Of a DNA stretch of 64,000 bases, positions 1 to 28,945 are shown one piece after another (position 1 is the stretch's first letter; the number at the start of each line of letters is the position of its first letter). Made by a program: the position numbers and the translations under genes. The DNA is from Pusillimonas sp. DMV24BSW_D. GTDB taxonomy: Bacteria > Pseudomonadota > Gammaproteobacteria > Burkholderiales > Burkholderiaceae_B. A model generated the notes under the pieces. It did no database searches and was not told the DNA's origin. It saw nothing but the letters and a program-made list of their open reading frames with translations. The stretch covers positions 1-64,000 of the forward strand of contig NZ_CP049990.1 of NCBI RefSeq assembly GCF_011388195.1. Direction: 5' to 3'.

Positions 1-740
1 CTCTCACCAACCGTCACAATAACCGTATCGCCGTCCTTAACGTCTCCGCCAACCGTACCGGTAAGAACAACACTCCCCCCAGACTCAACCGCACTAATAA
101 CGTTATCGCCTGTGACTGGATTAATTTCAACCGATGCACTAACACCAGTATCAACAACATAATTTTGCGATGAAGATGCGGTAGCCGCATTGCCTGCGGC
201 ATCCGTCGCGGTAACGCGGGCCGAAATCGATGAGTTGCCGGCCAAGACGGAACCGGGTACCGAAACGCTCCAGGAAACCCCGTTTGCAGCAACCGTTGCG
301 GTATACGTGGCGGAGCCAATGGTGATTGTGACAACATCCCCGGCACGCACGTCACCACCAACGCGCCCACTTAATGTGACTGCCTGACCTGACTCAAAAC
401 TATTGACGATATTATCGGCCGTAACCGGGTTAATTGTTACGCTTGCGGAAATGTCCGTATCAACCAGATACGGACGCGACGTAGTACCAGTAGCCGAAAG
501 GCCGGCAATATTGGTGGTGGTAAGGGAAGCACTAATCGAACCGGCGCTCAGCAGATCTGCGCCAGGGATCTCGATAGACCAAGTTGCACCATTGGCCCCA
601 ACCGAAGTGGTATATGTTTTGCCGCCAATCGACAAAGTAATCGTGTCACCCGGGTTAACCGTACCACCCACCGCGCCGAACACGCGCACCGTACCGCGCG
701 CTTCTGCCGCATTAATAATGTTGTCTGATGCAATATTGGC
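1..740 (-). repeat. Tandem Ig-like repeats of the adhesin
   Basis: Three successive units, the third cut by the edge, each about 100 codons long. They begin near 736, 421 and 117 with the related residues ASDNIIN, TADNIVN and TGDNVIS. Each contains a GxVGG(D/T)V...GDT/V(I/V)TxxIG segment and ends in VDT(D/G)(I/V)SASV. They are diverged at DNA level, so they are old protein repeats rather than fresh duplications. Confidence 0.75.
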
Positions 741-1370
741 GATCACAATATTGGCAATAGGGGGGCGCGCCGGTGGCCCAGCTGGTGGATCAAACGGGCG
801 ACCACGATCAGCCTCTTCACGCCCTGTGGCGCCACCCTGACCCTGCGTCGTCTGAAGCTCCGGCCCCGTTAATGTTTGAACCAGCGGATCCACTTCCCGT
901 GTTACCTGAGCATTCAAGGGCAGCGTTGCTTGCTGAATACCCAAAATACGCACAAGATTCTCAACCGAATCCACGTTGGCTACATCACTGGTTTCACTTT
1001 GATCAATGGAAAACGCACGCTCGTTGTTTTGGATAACGGCAGCGGTAGGTGCCAAGGCAGAAAATGGATCTTGTCCCGCCTCCAGGGCTTGAGCCAAACC
1101 GGCGACATCGGGATTCGAAGGCACACTGGCTTCACTTGGATCCACATCTGGAATATCAAGGCTGGGTTCAACCGCGAAAACCTGGTTCGACCCAACAACC
1201 ACCAACGGGTTGTTATCCATCGTCAGCTCAACGCTGCTCACATCACCCGTAACAATCTCCGCATCCAGCGGAATCTGATCGCCCAGTTTCACCGCAACAA
1301 GGGAGCCATCCGCAGAACGGACCCATGCCTCGCCGGTTACTTCAACAACGGTTGCAAATCCAGTAGCCAT
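1..1370 (-). CDS. LapA-like giant adhesin, N-terminal part (runs off the window)
   Basis: An open frame starts at ATG 1370 (GGAAAA upstream) and runs without a stop off the left edge, so only about 456 N-terminal residues are visible. Residues 1-70 (starts MATGFATVVEVTGEAWV) resemble the retention module of LapA-type adhesins, which holds the protein in the outer-membrane pore. A di-alanine segment, PTAAV at 108-112, lies where the periplasmic protease LapG cuts LapA. An acidic, Pro-rich linker follows. From about residue 210 there are Ig-like repeats of roughly 100 residues (motifs such as DNIVN, VGGDVRAGD, VDTDISASV). There is no Sec signal peptide, as expected for type I secretion. Family role: biofilm adhesion. 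The C-terminal RTX/secretion signal and the transporter genes would lie to the left and cannot be seen. The LapA-like assignment is inference from domain layout. Confidence 0.8.
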   Translation of the reverse strand, partial: MATGFATVVEVTGEAWVRSADGSLVAVKLGDQIPLDAEIVTGDVSSVELTMDNNPLVVVGSNQVFAVEPSLDIPDVDPSEASVPSNPDVAGLAQALEAGQDPFSALAPTAAVIQNNERAFSIDQSETSDVANVDSVENLVRILGIQQATLPLNAQVTREVDPLVQTLTGPELQTTQGQGGATGREEADRGRPFDPPAGPPARPPIANIVIANIASDNIINAAEARGTVRVFGAVGGTVNPGDTITLSIGGKTYTTSVGANGATWSIEIPGADLLSAGSISASLTTTNIAGLSATGTTSRPYLVDTDISASVTINPVTADNIVNSFESGQAVTLSGRVGGDVRAGDVVTITIGSATYTATVAANGVSWSVSVPGSVLAGNSSISARVTATDAAGNAATASSSQNYVVDTGVSASVEINPVTGDNVISAVESGGSVVLTGTVGGDVKDGDTVIVTVGE

Positions 1371-1494: not shown

Positions 1495-2217
1495 TTAATT
1501 CTTCAAACCCTGCACCCACCGCTGGTAGACGCGACGCAGAACATCAGTTAAACCCGCGGTTCTTTCTGAAATGTTACTAAACATTTCATTTTCTGAGCTA
1601 ACAGACGGATTGCCTGCCTCACGCTCACGTTTCAGGAATGCGCCATTTTTAGCCACATAAGCCTCAACCAATGCCGGTGTCATCTCAAAATGCGACTGCA
1701 TGCCAATATGCAAATCGTTCACCACGAAAGCCTGATTTTCACAAGTGCGGTTCGTCGCAATACGGACAGCGCCGGGCGGAAGCGAGAAGGTATCGCTATG
1801 CCATTGAAACGTAAGCAATTCTTCTCCGGGTTTACGCTGCCACCACGCATCAGAAAACAAATTATTTTCCGTTTGAATAGATTGCCAGCCAATCTCGGCG
1901 CGGTGATTTTTCTCAACTTTAGCACCTAAGGCCACCGCCAAAATCTGGCTGCCCAAACAGTGGCCCGCTACCGGCATGCCCAACTCGTTCGCCCGACGAA
2001 TCAGTTCAATTTCCTGATTAATCCATGGGAATGGGTCATAAACACCCATATATCCTCCCATAAGAACCAACCCGGAAAACACCTCGGGGTTTTCCGGAAC
2101 AGGCTCGCCCTGGTCGACACGGATCACTTGGGTTCGAACGCCCAGGTCGTCCAGAATGGGCACAACCGTGCCCGGCGTGCCAACTTCGGTATGCTGAAAA
2201 ACGGCAACAGGTTTCAT
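1495..2217 (-). CDS. Class I glutamine-amidotransferase-like hydrolase
   Basis: A 240-residue protein of the GMP-synthase-like type 1 GATase family. The nucleophile elbow GHCLGSQ puts the catalytic Cys at 87; the later SHFE motif gives His176 and Glu178, completing a C-H-E triad. No synthetase domain is fused to it. In aniline-degradation operons a stand-alone GATase-like protein (TdnT/AtdA2 type) hydrolyses gamma-glutamyl amides, and in polyamine pathways PuuD does the same, so a gamma-glutamyl hydrolase is likely here. It is the last gene of the operon; its ATG overlaps the amidase stop by 4 bp, implying translational coupling. The fold is clear; the substrate is inference. Confidence 0.82.
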   Translation of the reverse strand: MKPVAVFQHTEVGTPGTVVPILDDLGVRTQVIRVDQGEPVPENPEVFSGLVLMGGYMGVYDPFPWINQEIELIRRANELGMPVAGHCLGSQILAVALGAKVEKNHRAEIGWQSIQTENNLFSDAWWQRKPGEELLTFQWHSDTFSLPPGAVRIATNRTCENQAFVVNDLHIGMQSHFEMTPALVEAYVAKNGAFLKREREAGNPSVSSENEMFSNISERTAGLTDVLRRVYQRWVQGLKN

Positions 2218-3572
2218 GTAAACAAGTTCAATATTGGCTCTATCTCTGCCGAAAAGCTTAACACTTGTTGATCCGCATACTTGCGCCCAACGATCTGCAA
2301 TCCAATTGGCAGCCCTTCAGACGAAGTTCCAACCGGCATACTGATACCGGGTTGATGAGACATATTGAATGGGAAGGCAAAGCTGTTGCCTGCAAACCAA
2401 TTCAGGTCTGTTTGCGTGCAAGCCGACGCGTCAGGCAATTGGGGCGCCGGAGCTGACGTGGTGGGCGTTAACAAAATATCCACTTCCCCGAACACGGCAT
2501 TCAAACGATTATGAAAATCGCGTAGTGCAGTACGACCCGCCGAAACCGAAGCAGTATCAATCGCCGCCCCTTCATCGTAAACACAAAGAAGCGCTGCATC
2601 CAGCAACTGGCGCTTTTCATCGGGCCAAGATTGAAAAGACTCGAAAATCCGGGCCACCCAAACAGCCCAAATCGAGTGCGCAAACCCTTCCGTTTTCAAA
2701 TCTACGCGCTCAAGCCAATAGCCCTGCTTGCTTAGTTTTTCGCGCACTTCCTTAAACCGCTGATCGACGGAAGCATCGATGACATCATCGGCATCAATTC
2801 GATCGCACCAGCCTATTTTCAAATACTTGCCAGGCTGACTGTCAAAACTGCGCTGAAACAAGGAACAAGGGTCTGAATAGTGGCCCTTCGACAGGGATGC
2901 AAAAGCCACCTGCGCATCGGCAACCGTTCGGGTAATGACTCCCTGATGCGCAAAATCGGCAAAGGCGCTCAAGGGAGGAGACGGAATCGCGCCATACGTT
3001 GGCTTGAACCCAACCACGCCGCAAAGCGCGGCAGGAATCCGAACCGACCCTCCGGCATCGCTGCCCAGTGCCAACGGCCCCCACCCTTTTGCTACGTGGG
3101 CCGCCGCACCACTGCTGGAACCGCCGGCCGAATGACACGGGTTGACCGGATTACGCGTGACACCGGTATGAGGGTTACTAGACATAATGGTCCAACCAAA
3201 TTCGGTTGAGGTGGTTTTGCCGAAAATAACGGCGCCGGCAGCACGTAACGCCGCGACAGACGGTGCATCCCGAGCCGGAACCGGGTCATGCTCGGTGGTG
3301 CGGGATCCACGCCGGTTAGGCCAACCTCTAACCGCAATCATGTCTTTAACAGAGACAGGAATACCATCAAGCAGCCCGATCGGCGTGCCATTCGCAAAAC
3401 GCTGCTCAGACGTCCGAGCCTGCTCCAGCGCCACCTCGCGATCGATTAATACAAAAGCGTTAATGTCTTGCTTATCAGCCTCAATTTCATCAAGCAACGT
3501 TTCCAGCACCGTAACCGGCGACAGTTCCCGACGGGAAAACGCCTGATGCAACTGATCTATATTCATATCCAC
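2214..3572 (-). CDS. Amidase (amidase signature family)
   Basis: A 452-residue protein with the Ser-cisSer-Lys triad of the amidase signature family: Lys76 (SVKDM), cis-Ser in GGSSSG at 150-155, and nucleophile Ser176 in GSDAGGSVRIP. Length is normal for the family (about 450-500). It lacks the conserved partners that would mark it as GatA: no gatC or gatB is nearby, and it sits in a catabolic operon. It starts 10 bp after the glutamine-synthetase-like gene and overlaps the next gene by 4 bp. Probable role: hydrolysis of an amide in the cluster's pathway. Whether it acts on the parent substrate or on a gamma-glutamyl intermediate is unknown. Confidence 0.85.
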   Translation of the reverse strand: MDMNIDQLHQAFSRRELSPVTVLETLLDEIEADKQDINAFVLIDREVALEQARTSEQRFANGTPIGLLDGIPVSVKDMIAVRGWPNRRGSRTTEHDPVPARDAPSVAALRAAGAVIFGKTTSTEFGWTIMSSNPHTGVTRNPVNPCHSAGGSSSGAAAHVAKGWGPLALGSDAGGSVRIPAALCGVVGFKPTYGAIPSPPLSAFADFAHQGVITRTVADAQVAFASLSKGHYSDPCSLFQRSFDSQPGKYLKIGWCDRIDADDVIDASVDQRFKEVREKLSKQGYWLERVDLKTEGFAHSIWAVWVARIFESFQSWPDEKRQLLDAALLCVYDEGAAIDTASVSAGRTALRDFHNRLNAVFGEVDILLTPTTSAPAPQLPDASACTQTDLNWFAGNSFAFPFNMSHQPGISMPVGTSSEGLPIGLQIVGRKYADQQVLSFSAEIEPILNLFT

Positions 3573-3582
3573 GCCATTAAGA

Positions 3583-5019
3583 TTAAAAAAGATCGAAATA
3601 CTCGCGATGCTCCCATTCGGTCACATCCAAATTAAAACGGGCGATTTCAGCCTCTTTAATAAAGCAATAGTAATCAACAAAAACACGCCCCATTTTTTCA
3701 ACTAAATAGGCATCCTCGCGCAAGCTGTCGATTGCTTCCTGCAAAGAACGCGGCAAAGGTTCGGCCTGGGTTTCATAAGGTACGTCCACCGATGGCCCGG
3801 GGTCGATCTGGTTTTGCATACCGTGCAACCCGGCAAACAATTGAGACGCCATATATAAGTAAGGATTTGCAGTCGGCTCACCCATACGATTTTCAATGCG
3901 AGACGCAGCCAGCCCCTTTCCACCCAGAATTCGCAACATGGCAGCCCGGTTGTCGCGTGCCCAAACAGCACGGTCGGGTGCCAGGGAAAAGGGCCGATAC
4001 CGCCGATAGCCGTTAATGGTTGGGCAGGCAAAGGCCGCGCTGGCGCGGGCATGTTGCTTCAGGCCGCCCAAATAATGCATGCCCATATCACTAAGTTCCT
4101 GGCCATCTTCATGCGGCATGAAAAGATTTTGCCCGTCGCTGCGGCGACGCAGTGACTGGTGCAGATGCCAGCCACTGGACATCACATTGGGTACTTTGGG
4201 CCGACACATAAACGTGGCGTGATAACCGTTACGCCAGCATATTTGCTTGATCGCACTACGCAAAAACACCATTAAATCGGCCGGCGCCATTCCCACCGTG
4301 GGGCTGAAAGTTAATTCAAACTGACTCGGGCCAAACTCAATTTCCATTGACCGCAACGGCAAATCGGCCGCCTGAAGCTGAGATCTCAGCAACTCCATGA
4401 GGTCATCCACACGATCGTACCGAAGTTCAGTAAGGTATTGATATCCGTGCGTTAACAGCGACACGTCGGGCGGAGTTCCAGGTTGTCCGCCGTCGGCCAG
4501 ACCCAATCGTTGCCCCTCAAGTTTGAAAGCGTGAAACTCCACCTCAAGACCTGCAACAAAATCGCATCCAAAGCCATCCAACTCTTTTAGCGCCCGTTGC
4601 ATTAGTTGGCGCGAAGAGATAGGCATGACCTGACCATCGACGGTGTAGGCGTCACACAGAACCCAACCGGTTTTGTTTGCCCACGGCAACACGCGAAAAG
4701 TTTGCGGATCGGCCACAATGGTGAAATCGGATGCGCCCTTCAAACCTTCAATTTGAAAGCCCGTGCTATTAAAAACAGGGAAAACTGTTTTATGTGACGT
4801 GTCCTTCAACAACAGCGTAGAAGTTAAATTCACACCATCCCACAACGCCTGCTTGGCCTCTTCTGCAACCAACGTTTTGCCGCGCAAAATACCGTGCTGG
4901 TCGGGAAAGACAAAGCGCACCAGATTCAGGTTCTCTGCTTCGATACGCTTAACAACATCCTGAGCCCATTTGTGCTGGTCGGGCGACCATAAATCGTACC
5001 GCTCAACAAAGCTGGCCAT
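3583..5019 (-). CDS. Glutamine-synthetase-like gamma-glutamyl-amine ligase
   Basis: A 478-residue member of the glutamine synthetase superfamily. Catalytic signatures are present: LEVEF (Glu159, Glu161), EIEFGPSQFEL (Glu226-235 region), SGWHLHQSL (His285, His287), NGYRRYRP (336-343) and RIENR...NPYLYMAS (374-391). The adenylylation-site segment typical of housekeeping GlnA is not visible. Such GS-like proteins (PuuA, IpuC, and TdnQ/AtdA1 for anilines) couple glutamate to an amine other than ammonia using ATP. Operon context with a Rieske oxygenase and a GATase-like hydrolase favours that role. Its ATG overlaps the Rieske stop (TAATG). The amine substrate cannot be predicted. Confidence 0.82.
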   Translation of the reverse strand: MASFVERYDLWSPDQHKWAQDVVKRIEAENLNLVRFVFPDQHGILRGKTLVAEEAKQALWDGVNLTSTLLLKDTSHKTVFPVFNSTGFQIEGLKGASDFTIVADPQTFRVLPWANKTGWVLCDAYTVDGQVMPISSRQLMQRALKELDGFGCDFVAGLEVEFHAFKLEGQRLGLADGGQPGTPPDVSLLTHGYQYLTELRYDRVDDLMELLRSQLQAADLPLRSMEIEFGPSQFELTFSPTVGMAPADLMVFLRSAIKQICWRNGYHATFMCRPKVPNVMSSGWHLHQSLRRRSDGQNLFMPHEDGQELSDMGMHYLGGLKQHARASAAFACPTINGYRRYRPFSLAPDRAVWARDNRAAMLRILGGKGLAASRIENRMGEPTANPYLYMASQLFAGLHGMQNQIDPGPSVDVPYETQAEPLPRSLQEAIDSLREDAYLVEKMGRVFVDYYCFIKEAEIARFNLDVTEWEHREYFDLF

Positions 5020-6362
5020 TATGCATCCCCGCCAACGCGCTGTGGCAATCGCTCAGAAGCCCAATCTGAGCCCTGGCGCCGCTCGATATCGGCCTCTTTC
5101 CAATAGGTAACCGGGTCTACACCCGCTTTTTCAATGCCATCAATTGAGGGGGGGCCCGAGAATTCACCCGCCTGTGACGCGTCGATTAATAAAGGTGCAT
5201 CGCCACCTTTCAAGGTGCTCTCAATCGCCTTAACCAACATACGACGATAGGTCACGATGCCTTTATCACTGGTTCCCAAGTGCTCGCGTGTGCGATCTTG
5301 TATACGCCCTTGAGACTCAATCGCCCACTGGTCATGCACATTAATATCGTGCCCCATCCCCGTGTACGTTTCCGACAGCTGCTCGTTGACATCGTACCCA
5401 TAGTTGTTGCTGCGATTGCGACGCGATATGTAATCGGGCAGCTCATACAGCTCCAACCGCTGCTCTCGCATACGCTTTTTATCCACCGGACCGGTAAAAC
5501 TGGTAAAAATGGCGTACCAATAACAAGTTTCATCATCAACCGGCACATGCCATTGAGAGATGGTCATTTCCGCACTCATGGGAATAACAAACGCCTGCGG
5601 AAATACAAGATTCGTTACGCGAACATGCGTTTGGTTCTGCGGCAAGTGGCGCAATGCCGTTAAGCGCATGCCGTAATTGGTTGGCTCCACCTTAATATCG
5701 GGGCGACCATATTCACGCAAAACCTGGGTGATAGGCATCTCGGAATCGGCAGATGCACCCCGGAACTGCTTGCCATAGCTTTCCGAGGTGTCTTCGTCTT
5801 CAAAAAAACGGTGCAAATACGATGCATGCGCGGGGTCGATACCTACTTCCAGAGCCTGGAGCCAGTTGCACTCGATCAGACCTTTGAACGCGAACGTGTG
5901 CGTGTCCGGCGCAACAAAGCAATCGAACTCGGGAAACGCGGGCGGCTCGCCTTCACCCAAATACGCAAAAATAATGCCGCTACGCTCGACCACGGGATAC
6001 GAACTTTGCTGGATATGTTTGTACATGGTGCTGTTTTCGGGTTCCGCAGGCGTTTCCAGACAGGCTCCCTTTACGTTGAACAGCCAGCCGTGAAATGGGC
6101 AGCGCAAGCCGCCGTCTTCAACGCGACCAAATGCCAGGTCGGCACCGCGATGCGGGCAATCGCGATCCATCAGTCCCAGTTCGCCGTTCTCGTCGCGAAA
6201 CAAAACAAAATTCTGCCCCATTAAGCGCACCGGGCGCACTGGACGCTTGCCTTCAAGCTCATCGGTTAACGCAACAGGCTGCCAGTACCTGCGCAACAGC
6301 TTGCCGGCCGGCGCTTCGGACCCTACACGCGTCATGAAATCATTCTGTTCCACTGTCAACAT
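5019..6362 (-). CDS. Rieske non-heme iron oxygenase, phthalate 4,5-dioxygenase-type alpha subunit
   Basis: A 447-residue protein. I chose ATG 6362 because GGAAGGAA lies 7 nt upstream; a 16-residue upstream extension has no such site. The N-terminal Rieske domain has Cys69-x-His71 and Cys88-x2-His91. The catalytic domain has the bridging Asp and iron ligands in D176-x2-H179-x4-H184 (IDPAHASYLH), preceded by NWLQALEVG. The length and motifs match the phthalate/vanillate/carbazole class, whose oxygenases work without a small subunit but need a separate reductase. No reductase or ferredoxin gene is in the cluster. It is the first gene of the operon, behind a GntR-type operator. Probable role: hydroxylation of an aromatic ring or another C-H bond. 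Confidence 0.85.
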   Translation of the reverse strand: MLTVEQNDFMTRVGSEAPAGKLLRRYWQPVALTDELEGKRPVRPVRLMGQNFVLFRDENGELGLMDRDCPHRGADLAFGRVEDGGLRCPFHGWLFNVKGACLETPAEPENSTMYKHIQQSSYPVVERSGIIFAYLGEGEPPAFPEFDCFVAPDTHTFAFKGLIECNWLQALEVGIDPAHASYLHRFFEDEDTSESYGKQFRGASADSEMPITQVLREYGRPDIKVEPTNYGMRLTALRHLPQNQTHVRVTNLVFPQAFVIPMSAEMTISQWHVPVDDETCYWYAIFTSFTGPVDKKRMREQRLELYELPDYISRRNRSNNYGYDVNEQLSETYTGMGHDINVHDQWAIESQGRIQDRTREHLGTSDKGIVTYRRMLVKAIESTLKGGDAPLLIDASQAGEFSGPPSIDGIEKAGVDPVTYWKEADIERRQGSDWASERLPQRVGGDA

Positions 6363-6396
6363 TGCATTATTCCTTCCAACATAAAAAGTTATTCCT

Positions 6397-6410
6397 ATTG
6401 TATACAACAA
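6397..6410 (-). promoter_or_regulatory. GntR-type operator upstream of the Rieske gene
   Basis: The 14-mer ATTGTATACAACAA contains the perfect palindrome TTGTATACAA (6398-6407). The same 14-mer occurs inverted at 6534-6547 in front of the gntR gene. FCD-type GntR regulators commonly bind TNGTNNNACNA-like palindromes, which this fits. It lies 35 bp upstream of the Rieske start, where repression of that promoter is expected. Confidence 0.7.
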
Positions 6411-6533
6411 TATTCAATCAAGAAAAGTACGTTTTTTAAATTATCTATCAAAATAAAAATAAACTATTTATTTTCAATACTTTAAATAAAATCAAGCAAA
6501 ACCAAAAAACATTCAAATTTCATAAAATAGAAT

Positions 6534-6547
6534 TTGTTGTATACAAT
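6534..6547 (+). promoter_or_regulatory. GntR-type operator upstream of the gntR gene
   Basis: TTGTTGTATACAAT is the exact inverted copy of the site at 6397-6410. It ends 32 bp before the regulator's ATG at 6580, in a very AT-rich divergent promoter region. The pair suggests the regulator represses both its own gene and the catabolic operon. Confidence 0.7.
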
Positions 6548-6579
6548 GAAATCATCTTGATTTGAGCAGCTTAAACACC

Positions 6580-7392
6580 ATGAGTTCACAACAATCACGC
6601 GTTCTGGTCCAACTGCGCGGGCTAATCCTGAACGGCACGTTCGCCCCTGGCGAACGCCTGGCGGAAATCCCGCTTTCAGAGCGATTAAACACGTCGCGTA
6701 CGCCAATCAGGCAAGCACTGGTCACACTCGAGCACGAAGGTTTGATCGAACCCTCTTCGGGCGGCGGATATCAAATGCGGGCCTTCACCATGGAAGAAGT
6801 GGCCGACGCCATTCGCCTAAGAGGCGTGATGGAAGGATTTGCCGCGCGAACATTAGCTGAACGTGGCGCAAGCAAATCAATCACCAAGGAACTGAAAAAG
6901 TGCCTCGACGAAGGCGATGCCGTGGTCTACAAAACCAGTATGGATTTGGACGATTACGCTCTTTACGTACGCATGAACGACCGTTTCCACCAACTCCTCA
7001 TTCAAGGGTGCGGCAATAAAGCGCTCATGCGCGTAATGGATCAACTCAACAGCCAGGCATTCGGCGCGCCCAGTGCAACATTACCCATGCAATCGTCCAT
7101 GGAGGAAGGCCAGGAATGGATGAAAATCGCCCACCACACCCACCACGCAATCGTCCAGGCAATCGAGCTTGGGCAAGGTAGCCGAGCTCAGGCTTTAGGT
7201 GAAGAGCACGTGGAAATTGCGCGCCAGAACCTGCAGTTCGCCATGCAAGACCCTGAACTGGCGGTGCGCATTTTGCCGGGCATACAAATGGTAAGCGGTG
7301 TGGAATCTACGACAACGGCCGACCCGCTAAAAAAGCCAAGCCAACAATTGGGAAAGCGTATTTCGCGTAAAAACGAAAACACAAAAGCATGA
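6580..7392 (+). CDS. GntR family (FCD subfamily) transcriptional regulator
   Basis: 270 residues from ATG 6580 (a TTG at 6562 is a possible but poorer start). N-terminal winged helix: VLVQLRGLILNGTFAPGERL, SERLNTSRTPIRQAL and LEHEGLI are typical GntR segments. The C-terminal part (from about residue 75) is an FCD-type all-helical ligand domain with RLRGVMEG, a FH...L segment and a late HH...EHV His pair that would hold a metal. It is divergent from the Rieske/GS/amidase/GATase operon, with matching operators between them, so it is probably the operon's substrate-responsive repressor. A Lys/Arg-rich tail of about 20 residues is unusual. Confidence 0.85.
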   Translation: MSSQQSRVLVQLRGLILNGTFAPGERLAEIPLSERLNTSRTPIRQALVTLEHEGLIEPSSGGGYQMRAFTMEEVADAIRLRGVMEGFAARTLAERGASKSITKELKKCLDEGDAVVYKTSMDLDDYALYVRMNDRFHQLLIQGCGNKALMRVMDQLNSQAFGAPSATLPMQSSMEEGQEWMKIAHHTHHAIVQAIELGQGSRAQALGEEHVEIARQNLQFAMQDPELAVRILPGIQMVSGVESTTTADPLKKPSQQLGKRISRKNENTKA

Positions 7393-7404
7393 AGTGGGGG
7401 GAGA

Positions 7405-7479
7405 TGGCGCGCCCGACAGGAATCGAACCTGTATCGAGAGCTTCGGAAACTCTAATTCTATCCATTGAACTACGGGCGC
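7405..7479 (-). tRNA. tRNA-Arg (anticodon CCG)
   Basis: Reading the minus strand gives a 7-bp acceptor stem GCGCCCG/CGGGCGC, anticodon loop TTCCGAA (anticodon CCG, Arg), a T-loop GGTTCGATTCC, discriminator G and an encoded CCA at 7405-7407. It sits between the gntR gene and the cytochrome gene. On the minus strand TACAAT lies just upstream as a possible -10 box. Confidence 0.95.
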
Positions 7480-7659
7480 GCAGCAGCGACATTGTAGCGG
7501 TTTCACTGCTTCCCTGCATTTCCCCCATACAACCGGTATAATCGCAGTCTTAGTTAGTAGCAACTCAACCCAATAACTATGCCCGGAAACGGGTGCAAAT
7601 GAAACCGCCTCGAATTTAGGCCCAGTGCGCCTTGGTTCCCGTATACGCAGGACTCGAGA

Positions 7660-8625
7660 ATGAACAACACAGAAGACCATACCGAAGAAACCCACGAAGG
7701 CCCAATCAAAACGCCGAAACAACTTATTGTTACCGTCGTTTTGTCCTTTATTGTTCCCGTACTCATTATTTTCCTGCTTATTCGTTTGGTGGTGTCCAGC
7801 GACATTATTGGCGCCGGTTCCGATGCCCAAACGCCTGAAGCCATTGCCATGCGCATTCAGCCCGTTGCAGGTTTTGAATTGGTCGATGCCAACGCACCAA
7901 AAGTATTCAAAACAGGGCAGCAGGTTTATGAGTCCACCTGCGCCTCCTGTCATAACGCCGGCATCGCCGGAGCACCCAAATTCGGCGACAAAGACGCCTG
8001 GGCGCCGTTTATCGCCCAAGGCTACGAGCAATTGCTGCAAGTTGCACTGCAAGGCAAAGGTGCCATGCCGCCTAAAGGTGGCAACCCTAACCTCGACGAT
8101 TTCGAAGTAGCACGTGCCGTGGTGTATATGGCAAATGAAGCCGGCGCCTCGTTCGAGGAACCTAAAGAGCCCGCTGCCGAGGGCGACGCAGGCAAACAGG
8201 AAGATAGCAGCACCAATTCTCAGGCCGCAGCAGCGCAACAACAGGCCGAACCTGAAAATGCCCAGGCGGCGACACAAGCAAAACCTGCAGCGTCAGCAGG
8301 TAGCAACAACGATAACGCTGCTGCCGAAACCGAAAAGAATAACGAGTCACAGCAAACTGCAGCGGCCACGCCGGCTGAAATCGATCCGGCCGGTGAAAAG
8401 CTGTACAACACCGTTTGCCTGGCTTGTCATGCGGCCGGTGTAGCCGGCGCACCGAAACTGGGAGACAAAGCAGCTTGGGAGCCCAGAATTGCCCAAGGGC
8501 TCGACGCCATGGTCAACACGGTTATCTCGGGTAAAGGCGCCATGCCGCCCAAAGGTGGTGCAGTTCAAGCCTCCGACGCTGAAATCCGCGCCGCAGTGCA
8601 ATTCATGGTATCCAAGTCTCAGTAA
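7660..8625 (+). CDS. Membrane-anchored diheme cytochrome c (two fused c5-type domains)
   Basis: A 321-residue protein. One N-terminal membrane helix (about 22-45) anchors it with the bulk in the periplasm. There are two near-duplicate cytochrome c5 domains: heme sites CASCH (94-98) and CLACH (253-257), each followed by GAPK(F/L)GDK(D/A)AW and a GAMPPKGG segment carrying the likely Met ligand. An 80-residue linker rich in Ala, Gln, Asn and Glu (about 165-243) joins them. Likely role: electron transfer in the respiratory chain. A TATAAT at 7537-7542 may be its -10 box. An internal duplication of one domain is evident. The physiological partner is not shown by context. Confidence 0.88.
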   Translation: MNNTEDHTEETHEGPIKTPKQLIVTVVLSFIVPVLIIFLLIRLVVSSDIIGAGSDAQTPEAIAMRIQPVAGFELVDANAPKVFKTGQQVYESTCASCHNAGIAGAPKFGDKDAWAPFIAQGYEQLLQVALQGKGAMPPKGGNPNLDDFEVARAVVYMANEAGASFEEPKEPAAEGDAGKQEDSSTNSQAAAAQQQAEPENAQAATQAKPAASAGSNNDNAAAETEKNNESQQTAAATPAEIDPAGEKLYNTVCLACHAAGVAGAPKLGDKAAWEPRIAQGLDAMVNTVISGKGAMPPKGGAVQASDAEIRAAVQFMVSKSQ

Positions 8626-8676
8626 AACGATTACTTATTACTGAAACGAAAAGGCCGCCTCACCGGCCAACCCATT

Positions 8677-8706
8677 AAAAAAGGAAGCTTTTCAGCTTCC
8701 TTTTTT
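8677..8706. terminator. Bidirectional rho-independent terminator
   Basis: A 12-bp perfect stem AAAAAAGGAAGC / GCTTCCTTTTTT with a 6-nt loop lies between the convergent cytochrome c and 3-hydroxyacyl-CoA dehydrogenase genes. The A and T runs flank the GC core, so it can terminate transcripts from either side. Confidence 0.9.
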
Positions 8707-8720
8707 ATCGGCTACGACTT

Positions 8721-10256
8721 TTATGCGGTTCCGGTTTTCGCTTCCGCCGTCAAACTCATTCCCAACTGAACGCGACGTTGCAACCATAAACTGGAACGAT
8801 AACGCATATCGCCTGTCACCCTTTGCATATTGCGCAGAATTTCAACAATATGGGCGGCACCCAGGCTATCACCCATGCTAAGCGGCCCGCCTTTCGGGTA
8901 ACCCAACCCCAACGACACCGCCAAATCAATATCTTTCGGTGACGCAATCGTTTGCTGGGCAATATCGCTTGCCACATTCACAATGGTGGCCACTACTCGC
9001 TGGCCAATAAAGCCGGCAGAATCATTAATGACGGTGACAGGAGAGTCATCAGAGGCAAACAGCGCCGCAGCGGCATCGCGCCATTGCGGTAACGTCGCCG
9101 CAGAACACATCACCACGCGGCGCTTGCCCTGCTCCAAACCGAAGAACGTATCCAATGCAACCGCACGCTCGGCATCCAGTTGATATTCACTCACCACACT
9201 GGCGACATCCTCACCGTAGGGCGTGACAACAATCAGCGCGTCAGCAGGCGGTTTGTCACTGGAAACAACCGAAACATTCAAAGTTTTAAGCAACGACAAA
9301 GCCCGCTTATGGCCGACTGAATGATAGGGAGCCACCCACACTTTAAGATCCTGGGGAAGCGAAGCGGGAGCGGATGACTCCGGCAATTGCTTTTGACCGT
9401 CTTCATAACGATAGAAGCCTGCACCGGTTTTCCGGCCCAGCATGCCTCCCGCCAGGCGAACAGCGGTGATTGGCGAGGGACGAAAACGCGGTTCATCGTA
9501 GAATTGTTGATAAATGGATTCCATTACCGGATGCGAGACATCGAGCCCGGTTAAATCCATGAGTTCAAACGGGCCCATACGGAAACCGGCTTGCTCACGC
9601 ATGATGGCGTCAATTTGATCAAACTGCGCCACGCCTTCCTGGGCTGCACGCAACCCTTCAATATTCAGACCACGCCCCGCATGGTTCACAATAAATCCGG
9701 GCATATCCTTGGCACGAACAGGTGTGTGACCCATTTTCCGCGCCAGTTCCATTAAGGCATCGCCTACGGCTGGGTCGGAACGCAAGCCATCAATCACTTC
9801 CACCACTTTCATCAGTGGAACGGGATTGAAAAAGTGATACCCCACCACGCGCTCAGGGTGTTCGCAAGCCGATGCAATCGCGGTAATAGGCAGCGACGAC
9901 GTATTGGATGCCAAAACACATTGCGCAGAAACGATGCCTTCAAGCTGCTTGAATAGATCTTTCTTAACATCGAGCCGCTCGACAATTGCCTCTACAACCA
10001 GATCAGCGTCGGCCATGGTTTCCAAAGAATCACAAGCAACAACGTTAGCCATGGCGGCTTTAACCTGTTCCGGCGTGAACTTTCCTTTGGCACTGAGCTT
10101 ATCCCAGGTTTGCTGCAACGACGTGCACGCCGCTTCCACGGCTTGCGAACTTACATCGAACAACTTAACCGTTAGGCCTGCCTGTGCCGCAATTTGGACG
10201 ATACCCTTGCCCATTGCGCCGGCGCCCACAATACCAATTGTTTTAATATCCTTCAT
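8721..10256 (-). CDS. 3-hydroxyacyl-CoA dehydrogenase (PaaH type)
   Basis: 511 residues from ATG 10256 (MKDIKTIGIV); a longer upstream frame lacks a better site. It oxidises 3-hydroxyacyl-CoA to 3-ketoacyl-CoA with NAD in fatty-acid or phenylacetate/adipate-type beta-oxidation. Evidence: Rossmann motif GAGAMG (11-16), SNTSSLPIT, catalytic HFFNPVPLMKVVEV, a 3HCDH C-terminal domain with FRMGPFELMDLTGLD, and a second partial 3HCDH domain near the end (NDSAGFIGQR...GYPKGGPLSMGD). The about 510-residue two-domain form matches PaaH-like proteins rather than the 280-residue Hbd. No paa cluster is nearby. It ends next to the shared terminator; rep lies 78 bp upstream on the same strand. Confidence 0.88.
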   Translation of the reverse strand: MKDIKTIGIVGAGAMGKGIVQIAAQAGLTVKLFDVSSQAVEAACTSLQQTWDKLSAKGKFTPEQVKAAMANVVACDSLETMADADLVVEAIVERLDVKKDLFKQLEGIVSAQCVLASNTSSLPITAIASACEHPERVVGYHFFNPVPLMKVVEVIDGLRSDPAVGDALMELARKMGHTPVRAKDMPGFIVNHAGRGLNIEGLRAAQEGVAQFDQIDAIMREQAGFRMGPFELMDLTGLDVSHPVMESIYQQFYDEPRFRPSPITAVRLAGGMLGRKTGAGFYRYEDGQKQLPESSAPASLPQDLKVWVAPYHSVGHKRALSLLKTLNVSVVSSDKPPADALIVVTPYGEDVASVVSEYQLDAERAVALDTFFGLEQGKRRVVMCSAATLPQWRDAAAALFASDDSPVTVINDSAGFIGQRVVATIVNVASDIAQQTIASPKDIDLAVSLGLGYPKGGPLSMGDSLGAAHIVEILRNMQRVTGDMRYRSSLWLQRRVQLGMSLTAEAKTGTA

Positions 10257-27403: not shown

Positions 27404-28945
27404 TTAATAAGCGCCGTGCTTCTTGAACTCGTCAATTGCAGCAGCAAGTGCCTCGTCGTCTTCCTTGGACAATTCTTTCTTGTCTTCGATCCGCTGAACC
27501 AAATCGGCATGCTTGGATTTCAGCGTTTCTTTCAAGGCTTTCTCGAAAGGCAGAACCTGGTCGACTTCAACGTCGTCGAGGTAACCGCGATTCACTGTGA
27601 ACAGCGACACGGCAAGTTCCCAAACCTGTAAAGGCTGATACTGCGGCTGCTTAAGCAACTCAACAACGCGCTTACCGCGCTCGAGCTGACGACGGGTTGC
27701 GTCGTCGAGGTCGGAAGCGAACTGAGCAAATGCGGCCAATTCACGATACTGCGCCAAGTCGGTACGAATACCACCGGCCAGTTTCTTGACCACTTTGGTT
27801 TGAGCCGAACCACCCACACGGGAGACCGAGATACCCGCGTTAATAGCAGGACGAATACCCGCGTTGAACAAGTCGGTTTCCAGGAAGATCTGACCGTCGG
27901 TAATGGAAATAACGTTGGTGGGAACGAAGGCGGAAACGTCGCCGGCCTGCGTCTCAATAATTGGCAACGCGGTTAACGAACCCGTTTTACCTTTTACTTC
28001 ACCATTCGTGAACTTCTCGACGTACTCGGCATTGACGCGAGCGGCACGCTCGAGCAAGCGGGAGTGCAAATAGAATACGTCACCGGGGTAGGCTTCACGA
28101 CCGGGAGGACGGCGCAGCAACAACGAAACCTGGCGATAAGCCCAAGCCTGCTTGGTAAGATCGTCGTATACGATCAGGGCGTCTTCGCCGCGATCGCGGA
28201 AGTATTCGCCCATCGTGCAACCGGAGTAAGCGGCCAGATACTGCATGGCGGCGGAATCGGAAGCGGCAGCGGCAACAACAATGGTGTATTCCATTGCGCC
28301 GTGCTCTTCGAGCTTGCGAACTACGTTGTTAATGGTAGAGGCTTTCTGACCAATAGCGACATACACGCAGGTAACATTCTTACCTTTCTGGCTGATGATG
28401 GTGTCGACAGCCACGGCAGTTTTACCGGTTTGGCGGTCACCAATAATCAGTTCGCGCTGACCACGGCCAATAGGTACCATAGAGTCAATCGCCTTAACAC
28501 CTGTTTGCAGGGGTTGGTCGACCGACTGACGCGCGATAACGCCGGGAGCCACTTTTTCGATAATATCGGTGGCTTTGGCGTTAATGGGGCCTTTGCCATC
28601 GATAGGGGTACCCAGTGCGTCGACCACACGGCCGCACAACTCGGGGCCGACAGGCACTTCAAGAATACGACCGGTTGTTTTTACCGGATCACCTTCGGAA
28701 ACGCCGGTGTAATCGCCCAGAATAACGGCACCGACCGAATCGCGCTCAAGGTTAAGCGCCAGGCCGAATACATTATTGGGAAATTCAAGCATTTCACCCT
28801 GCATCACATCGGACAAACCGTGAATGCGGGTAATACCGTCGGTCACGGATACGACCGTGCCCTGCGTACGTACGTCAGTCGACGCGCCCAAGCCTTCGAT
28901 ACGGCTTTTGAGCAGCTCGCTGATCTCTGACGGGTTAAGTTGCAT
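27404..28945 (-). CDS. atpA: F1Fo ATP synthase subunit alpha
   Basis: A 513-residue non-catalytic nucleotide-binding F1 subunit. N-terminal [16 protein letters not shown], Walker [22 protein letters not shown] and VSRVGGSAQ are family signatures. It has the normal length (E. coli 513) and sits between atpH and atpG. Confidence 0.98.

Follow-up and report, generated by a model that had tools for sequence, protein, structure and literature searches.

A fixed Rieske oxygenase-glutamine synthetase-like gene pair in Pusillimonas and its possible role in gamma-glutamylation-dependent oxygenation of acid-bearing aromatic amines

Gene content of the locus

The window analysed here is the first 64 kb of one 3.19-Mb contig (NZ_CP049990.1) of Pusillimonas sp. 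DMV24BSW_D. At positions 1495-7392 it carries five intact open reading frames (ORFs): genes for a GATase, an amidase, a glutamine synthetase (GS)-like protein and a Rieske oxygenase, all on the minus strand, and for a GntR regulator on the plus strand. The order of transcription is Rieske oxygenase, GS-like ligase, amidase and GATase, with a 1-bp overlap between the oxygenase and GS-like genes, a 10-bp gap between the GS-like and amidase genes, and a 4-bp overlap between the amidase and GATase genes. A preliminary description of the locus had reported this gene order, the same junctions and the divergent GntR gene, all of which were confirmed by the ORFs and by Pfam. The features are as follows, in window coordinates.

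1495-2217, minus strand: GATase-like hydrolase, class I; 240 amino acids; C87, H176 and E178; Pfam GATase
2214-3572, minus strand: amidase-signature hydrolase; 452 amino acids; K76, S152 and S176; Pfam Amidase
3583-5019, minus strand: putative GS-like gamma-glutamyl-arylamine ligase (SadB-like, GoaS class); 478 amino acids; Pfam Gln-synt_C
5019-6362, minus strand: single-subunit Rieske oxygenase (LigXa_C/phthalate-dioxygenase type; SadA-like); 447 amino acids; Pfam Rieske and LigXa_C
6398-6407, no strand: palindrome TTGTATACAA, candidate GntR operator, close to the oxygenase start
6537-6546, no strand: second palindrome TTGTATACAA, candidate operator, close to the GntR start
6562-7392, plus strand: divergent GntR/FCD regulator; Pfam GntR and FCD

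Pfam assignments of all five genes exceed the curated cut-offs, and none of the four operon enzymes reaches the curated cut-off of any NCBIfam family shown. By these profiles, the four enzymes belong to known superfamilies and have no curated exact function. Catalytic motifs are present in each: CxH/CxxH and DPxHxxxLH in the Rieske oxygenase, the metal-site Glu and His residues in the GS-like protein, and the listed residues of the amidase and GATase, whose roles are presumed. The ATG start of the oxygenase gene (6362) agrees with the family alignment, while the longest ORF starts with TTG at 6410; for GntR, an alternative ATG at 6580 suits the relatives better than 6562. No small oxygenase subunit, ferredoxin or reductase was found among the seven genes that were profile-scanned (1495-10256).

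The single-subunit Rieske oxygenase gene is directly followed by a GS-like gene, the arrangement that is called SadAB-type here; since the window operon holds no ferredoxin gene, this label is used in place of "sad operon". The sad operon was identified in Hydrogenophaga intermedia PBC by transposon mutagenesis, and the available text of that report lists sadA as 4-aminobenzenesulfonate 3,4-dioxygenase, sadB as a glutamine synthetase and sadC as a ferredoxin, and also names SadD (PMC5632844). The product is 4-sulfocatechol, formed by deamination of 4-aminobenzenesulfonate, and the authors considered that the original substrate was probably a natural compound of similar structure (PMC5632844).

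The oxygenase and ligase genes form a fixed pair

Searching 200 family genomes with the window ligase gave matches of at least 58% identity in 26 genomes, and one further genome had a 46% identical aniline-type ligase. The reverse search with the oxygenase recovered the identical 26 genomes at an identity of at least 68%, the next best match being 43%. A set of 90 loci was then compared, comprising 80 relatives' loci, the window, and nine of 20 family loci. The 80 are the best 80 of 583 by GS similarity, and pairing rates hold for close relatives of the window ligase; gene borders in the relatives' loci are approximate (codon-scored gene caller). The 11 family loci omitted were a near-copy of the window (L030), an aniline-type locus (L048), and nine that were duplicated among the 80 (L032, L035, L037, L039, L040, L041, L043, L045 and L046). 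Two near-copies, L072 and L073, were both retained.

In every one of the 90 loci, the ligase gene immediately follows the oxygenase gene. Pairwise distances of the two proteins are also strongly correlated (Mantel r = 0.94, against 0.13 for the best of 500 permutations). The oxygenase-ligase pairing is fixed, beyond chance. On plasmids, an oxygenase match of at least 52% occurs in 13 records, exactly those that carry this ligase type. The plasmid genes are adjacent by coordinates in 10 of 13, and are split or rearranged in Nitratireductor, Pseudooceanicola and Palleronia. Hosts of the pair are alpha- and betaproteobacteria that include Variovorax, Bradyrhizobium, Paraburkholderia, Cupriavidus, Methylobacterium and Novosphingobium, among others. 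Those plasmid records that are annotated label the ligase gene only as "glutamine synthetase family protein" and the oxygenase gene only as "aromatic ring-hydroxylating dioxygenase subunit alpha".

The ligase resembles gamma-glutamyl-arylamine ligases

The best PDB match of the GS-like protein is 8wwu (E 1e-124), and the runner-up, an ordinary GS, is at 2e-54. 8WWU is NpaA1, which is described as glutamylating 1-naphthylamine (PMC11335346). An alignment was built with the ligases of the window, NpaA1 and strain SA1, two aniline-type ligases, PuuA and GlnA. In this alignment, the GlnA columns D50, S53 and E327, which we take to belong to the ammonia site, with Glu327 as its flap, hold T66, L69 and L346 in the window ligase. 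The metal-site Glu and His columns are retained, including E226/E228, and a loop insertion aligns with V68'-M81' of NpaA1. The GoaS class has been described by loss of GlnA Asp50, an extra N-terminal loop (the "15th motif") and loss of the flap glutamate (PMC11335346). By alignment, the window ligase has T66 at the Asp50 column and the N-terminal loop insertion, the 15th motif itself being unscored. The available text gives Glu357 as the lost flap residue of GlnA (PMC11335346); in the alignment made here, the Glu357 column is Glu in the window ligase, NpaA1 and GlnA, and the Glu327 column is Leu in the window ligase and NpaA1.

Profile scores and phylogeny agree with this placement. The window ligase stays below the cut-offs of both the GlnA equivalog TIGR00653 (235 bits; cut-off, 429) and the PuuA equivalog (231 bits; cut-off, 650), and a second Gln-synt_C gene elsewhere in the genome, presumably GlnA, scores higher in that family (460 versus 266 bits). 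In a maximum likelihood tree of 34 rows, 27 of them SadAB-type, the SadAB-type and aniline-type ligases share one branch (support 95/98), with GlnA and PuuA apart on long branches. This grouping with NpaA1 and aniline-type ligases is in line with the earlier suggestion that gamma-glutamylation is the likely first step, and the grouping with ordinary GS that would have spoken against it did not occur. As judged from sequence, the window GS-like protein is not a glutamine synthetase, because NpaA1 is its closest solved relative and the ammonia-site residues are lost. Membership in Pfam Gln-synt_C is also what would be expected of an ordinary, ammonia-using GS that happens to adjoin an unrelated oxygenase. 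That explanation is extremely improbable given the low TIGR00653 score, the stronger Gln-synt_C gene elsewhere in the genome, the altered ammonia site and the fixed pairing with the oxygenase.

The amine pocket of these ligases sits between subunits. In NpaA1, F75', F86' and W235 form the gate of the amine tunnel, and an F75A change nearly eliminates the use of aniline (PMC11335346). The F75' position is occupied by K72 in the window ligase, and is Lys throughout the 90 loci and in nine of nine additional clade members (SA1, Polaromonas, two Methylobacterium, Cupriavidus, Nitratireductor, Pseudooceanicola, Palleronia and Novosphingobium RL4). It is Phe in three of three aniline/naphthylamine-type ligases (NpaA1, pLME1 and L048, the latter two classed as aniline type by gene order) and in a Streptomyces row, and Met in PuuA. 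The Lys/Phe difference may offer a simple rule to tell acid-arylamine ligases from aniline ligases.

Novosphingobium resinovorum SA1 is a sulfanilate degrader (PMC5632844; PMC6167471). Its plasmid pSA3 carries an oxygenase and a ligase that are 63.8% and 57.5% identical to the window proteins, and the ligase shares the Lys. The SA1 ligase sits among the SadAB-type rows in the tree, and the SA1 oxygenase was placed by identity alone. Neighbours of the pSA3 pair are genes for maleylacetate reductase, a CHMI-like protein, a ferredoxin, a reductase and an IclR regulator, and insertion sequence (IS) elements.

The substrate is probably an aromatic amine with an acid group

The evidence favours an aromatic amine bearing an acid group over an aliphatic amine. 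This reading is based on sequence comparison and rests on three lines of evidence: the invariant Lys of the ligase, a carboxylate-binding Arg of the oxygenase, and co-occurrence with the protocatechuate pathway. The structure 7fjl is presumably the phthalate dioxygenase (PDO) of Comamonas testosteroni KF1. The structure 9ina is the isophthalate dioxygenase (IPDO) of the same strain (PMC12445078). R248 of the window oxygenase aligns with the carboxylate-binding residues R244 of PDO and R234 of IPDO, and is retained in 90 of 90 loci. The simplest acidic arylamine case would be conversion of 4-aminobenzoate to protocatechuate, by analogy with that of sulfanilate to 4-sulfocatechol.

Both PcaH and PcaG are encoded in the window's genome, with scores above cut-off, and the neighbours of pcaHG were read by eye as pcaB, pcaC, pcaIJ and pobA. 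Among the family genomes, 25 of 26 with the pair and 43 of 174 without it encode PcaH or match LigA strongly (E < 1e-25). The control homogentisate dioxygenase, HmgA, a marker of general aromatic catabolism, is present in 22 of 26 and 91 of 174, respectively; when only HmgA-positive genomes are considered, a ring-cleavage match is found in 22/22 with the pair versus 39/91 without it. A Palleronia plasmid holds the oxygenase and ligase genes, and one for a CHMI-like protein, next to pcaBDGHC. A PcaR/PcaU/PobR-type IclR regulator is encoded beside the pair in a Bradyrhizobium locus (L096; 287.6 bits, cut-off 284.75), and in Cupriavidus an aromatic acid/H+ symporter gene and a gamma-Glu-GABA hydrolase-family gene are near the pair. 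Box genes are a further kind of aromatic-acid gene found close to relatives, with boxB homologs in 11 of 90 loci.

A neutral aromatic amine of the aniline type, or an aliphatic amine, would suit the position of the GS-like clade, which is nearest to aniline/naphthylamine ligases, and the substrate range of NpaA1 has been described as broad (PMC11335346). Such a substrate is quite unlikely, since an invariant Lys replaces a tunnel Phe that matters for aniline use by NpaA1, the oxygenase is phthalate-type with the carboxylate Arg retained, a congener (G104) has an aniline-type operon with the 46% identical GS-like ligase, and a PcaR/PobR-type regulator and an aromatic-acid symporter are encoded near relatives. 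A PuuA-like, aliphatic reading was rejected, as PuuA is far from the window ligase both by score and in the tree. Thus, where the preliminary description allowed an aromatic or an aliphatic substrate, the aromatic option stands, narrowed to an anionic aromatic amine; the aliphatic option is disfavoured by the Lys, the Arg and the distance from PuuA.

4-Aminobenzoate is the usual substrate of dihydropteroate synthase. A folP gene for that enzyme lies ~8.4 kb from the oxygenase gene on pSA3 (L140:45768-46598), possibly by coincidence. A CHMI-like tautomerase-family protein of ~112-121 amino acids is encoded in eight of 90 loci and on three plasmids, in distant hosts (for example L134:12955-13296, L133, L159, L072 and L107).

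Accessory genes and regulation

Homologs of accessory genes were counted within 11 kb of the pair in the 90 loci. A ferredoxin gene is near the pair in 38 loci, a ferredoxin reductase gene in 29, and a gene for a branched-chain-type ABC transporter binding protein in 43. Hydrolases are less frequent, with GATase in 21/90, amidase in 8/90, C26 peptidase in 6/90 and Amidohydro_3 in 8/90. In 53 of the 90 loci no member of these four types turned up, an upper bound because contig ends cut some loci, amidase matches of ~29-30% were left uncounted and the search covered these four hydrolase families only. The hydrolases are variable and often unlinked, which argues against an obligatory release step, and the GATase and amidase look accessory. 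The window GATase is only 26-30% identical to three aniline/naphthylamine-type GATases, and shares its superfamily with NpaA2. In the eight amidase loci, a gene for a solute-binding protein lies directly before the amidase gene in seven, the window being the exception, and a GATase gene after it in six. The position of the amidase behind a solute-binding protein suggests precursor processing rather than a release step. Of the scheme put forward in the preliminary description, in which an amine is glutamylated, oxidised and then released by one or both hydrolases, the first two steps are likely and obligatory release by a hydrolase is doubtful.

Amidohydro_3-family enzymes are encoded in or beside the operon in L107 (12795-14426) and L072 (17916-19523), both profile-scanned, and in L124, by clustering; they may perhaps stand in for the amide hydrolase. 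An FAD amino-acid-oxidase-like gene is near the pair in nine of 90 loci (L036, L047, L053, L056, L064, L074, L090, L093 and L094), often with hydantoinase/oxoprolinase-like and tripartite-transporter receptor genes, and similar genes flank the Pseudooceanicola pair.

Dedicated hydrolases would be required if the glutamylated acidic arylamine were hydroxylated beside the nitrogen and the nitrogen retained. The GATase and amidase would then strip the glutamate, and the resulting o-aminophenol acid, such as 4-amino-3-hydroxybenzoate, would undergo ring cleavage by a 3-hydroxyanthranilate dioxygenase (3-HAO)-like enzyme, with a RidA-type protein carrying out the deamination. The 4-amino-3-hydroxybenzoate and 2-aminomuconate pathways employ 3-HAO-like and RidA-type enzymes. 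In L080 (11656-12908), a 3-HAO-family gene (PF06052, 70 bits against a cut-off of 25, and below the NCBIfam equivalog cut-offs) and a RidA gene lie between the GS-like gene and the solute-binding protein and GATase genes; L070 has a similar order, judged by gene length and a RidA match only. Retention of the nitrogen is nonetheless unlikely, given that 3-HAO/RidA genes were noticed in these two loci only, the window not among them, that no hydrolase of the four types was found within 11 kb in 53 loci, and that sad is reported to deaminate its substrate, giving 4-sulfocatechol (PMC5632844).

Two sister loci, L032 and L033, retain genes for a ferredoxin and a binding protein between the GS-like and amidase genes, where the window has 10 bp; these genes are therefore read as lost in the window lineage. 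The same deletion could mean that the window copy is a decayed relic whose remaining genes are unused. A relic is improbable, as all ORFs are intact and overlap or nearly so, and the near-identical genome G019 (locus L030) retains the identical gene set. In addition, the window's genome has four ferredoxin homologs outside the window, at 426, 917, 955 and 2063 kb, and its homologs of the relatives' reductase likewise lie outside. Two of these ferredoxin genes have a reductase gene less than 1 kb away, and one such ferredoxin/reductase pair is near 426.3-427.8 kb. Judged from its gene content, the window copy is a variant of the SadAB-type pair without the ferredoxin and binding protein, and with an accessory amidase and GATase.

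Regulators near the pair are GntR homologs of >50% identity in 53 of 90 loci and IclR in 28. The palindrome TTGTATACAA was considered as a conserved GntR operator and rejected, since it occurs in only three of 49 GntR-oxygenase intergenic stretches, those of the window and two loci of its genus; a looser palindrome pattern has a third window match at 28164. Beyond the 3' end of the GntR gene are a tRNA-Arg gene (7405-7479) and a gene for a protein with two cytochrome c domains. At the other side, a long open frame (1-1370, minus strand), apparently with internal repeats, is cut by the start of the contig.

Proposed pathway

Gene anatomy, family placement, fixed pairing, residue changes and the presence of pcaHG are direct observations; from these and from known systems, we infer all of the reactions and the substrate. 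The operon is proposed to carry out SadAB-type, gamma-glutamylation-dependent oxygenation of an acid-bearing aromatic amine, with 4-aminobenzoate as the lead candidate and sulfanilate as a xenobiotic analogue, a reading to which we assign a probability of roughly 0.58. The GS-like ligase would use ATP to join the gamma-carboxyl of glutamate to the ring amine. The oxygenase, with electrons from a ferredoxin and a reductase whose genes lie at other sites in the genome, would then dioxygenate the ring at the carbon that bears the amide and at the adjacent one. The nitrogen would depart (as glutamine, by analogy), leaving a catechol-type acid, which would be protocatechuate from 4-aminobenzoate and 4-sulfocatechol from sulfanilate. 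Of these, protocatechuate would feed into the beta-ketoadipate pathway of the window's genome. The amidase more likely releases the substrate from an amide precursor, and the GntR protein probably represses in both directions. The GATase probably hydrolyses excess gamma-glutamyl amide, by analogy with the aniline GATase, which is described as hydrolysing gamma-glutamyl amide (PMC11335346).

Several observations weigh against this proposal. The operon has no ferredoxin or reductase gene. The link to sad runs via SA1 and gene order rather than via the Hydrogenophaga SadA (WP_009515254.1) and SadB (WP_009515256.1) sequences, and the order of SadAB-type and aniline rows within their joint branch is not settled by the tree, in which the PuuA row is very long. 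K72 and R248 could alternatively contact the carboxylate of the glutamyl group or play a structural part. The protocatechuate counts are uncorrected for kinship and catabolic breadth, and the LigA matches take in other dioxygenases as well. In none of the 90 loci was a homolog (at least 30% identity over at least 60% of the query) found for pcaB, H, G, I or J or pobA of the window's genome; linked pca genes were thus discarded as proof of the product, with the Palleronia plasmid alone in support. Some neighbours hint at other products, namely the 3-HAO-family and RidA genes of L080, the CHMI-like genes (8/90 loci) and boxB homologs (11/90), and maleylacetate reductase and intradiol dioxygenase homologs are near the pair in 3/90.

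A broader proposal is that the SadAB-type pair is a widespread natural aerobic route from 4-aminobenzoate to protocatechuate via gamma-glutamyl-4-aminobenzoate, with the ligase Lys reading the acid group and sulfanilate use having been recruited. This is put forward tentatively, with a somewhat less than even chance of being correct. Alcaligenes aquatilis QD168 grows on 4-aminobenzoate, with the responsible genes not identified in the available text (PMC6460240), and Cupriavidus metallidurans CH34 also grows on this compound (PMC8879955). Searches of the open-licence PMC literature turned up no study that gives genes for the step from 4-aminobenzoate to protocatechuate. If the pair is a general acidic-arylamine path, the question of the natural substrate of the sad operon would be answered, many annotations would be corrected, and candidate genes would be available for 4-aminobenzoate use in environmental bacteria.

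Comparison with known systems

The preliminary description presented the pathway as undescribed. This is only partly borne out: the sad operon has been reported (PMC5632844) and SA1 carries the clade. For the four-gene arrangement, searches of the open-licence PMC literature turned up no functional study, subscription papers being mostly outside that scope.

PDO and IPDO of C. testosteroni KF1 are, like the window oxygenase, of the single-subunit type with a conserved carboxylate-binding Arg. They are distant from it (209-216 bits) and, unlike for the window pair, a GS-like partner is not mentioned in the available text (PMC12445078).

The aniline and 1-naphthylamine operons (AtdA1-A5, TdnQTA1A2B and NpaA1-A5) share a GS-like ligase, a GATase and a Rieske oxygenase with the window. 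In contrast, they have a two-subunit oxygenase and the tunnel Phe, where the window has a single-subunit oxygenase and Lys. The contrast drawn in the preliminary description was upheld: the window oxygenase is a single subunit, the seven scanned genes include neither a small subunit nor a reductase, and an amidase is present. The large and small oxygenase subunits and reductase that mark an aniline operon are thus not found together in the window, in contrast to L153 and L048. The latter (G104:C27:1-7092), from the window's genus, is an aniline-type operon of GS-like, GATase, oxygenase large and small subunit and reductase genes flanked by two LysR-like genes, as read by eye, with alignment for the GS-like and GATase genes only.

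The pSA3 pair differs from that of the window in that the annotated 50 kb of pSA3 has no GATase or amidase. The sad operon has a ferredoxin, whereas the window operon has none and has an amidase and a GATase. Like the window, the sad operon combines a single-subunit Rieske oxygenase with a GS-like gene, and the sad pair handles a deaminating first step on an acidic arylamine.

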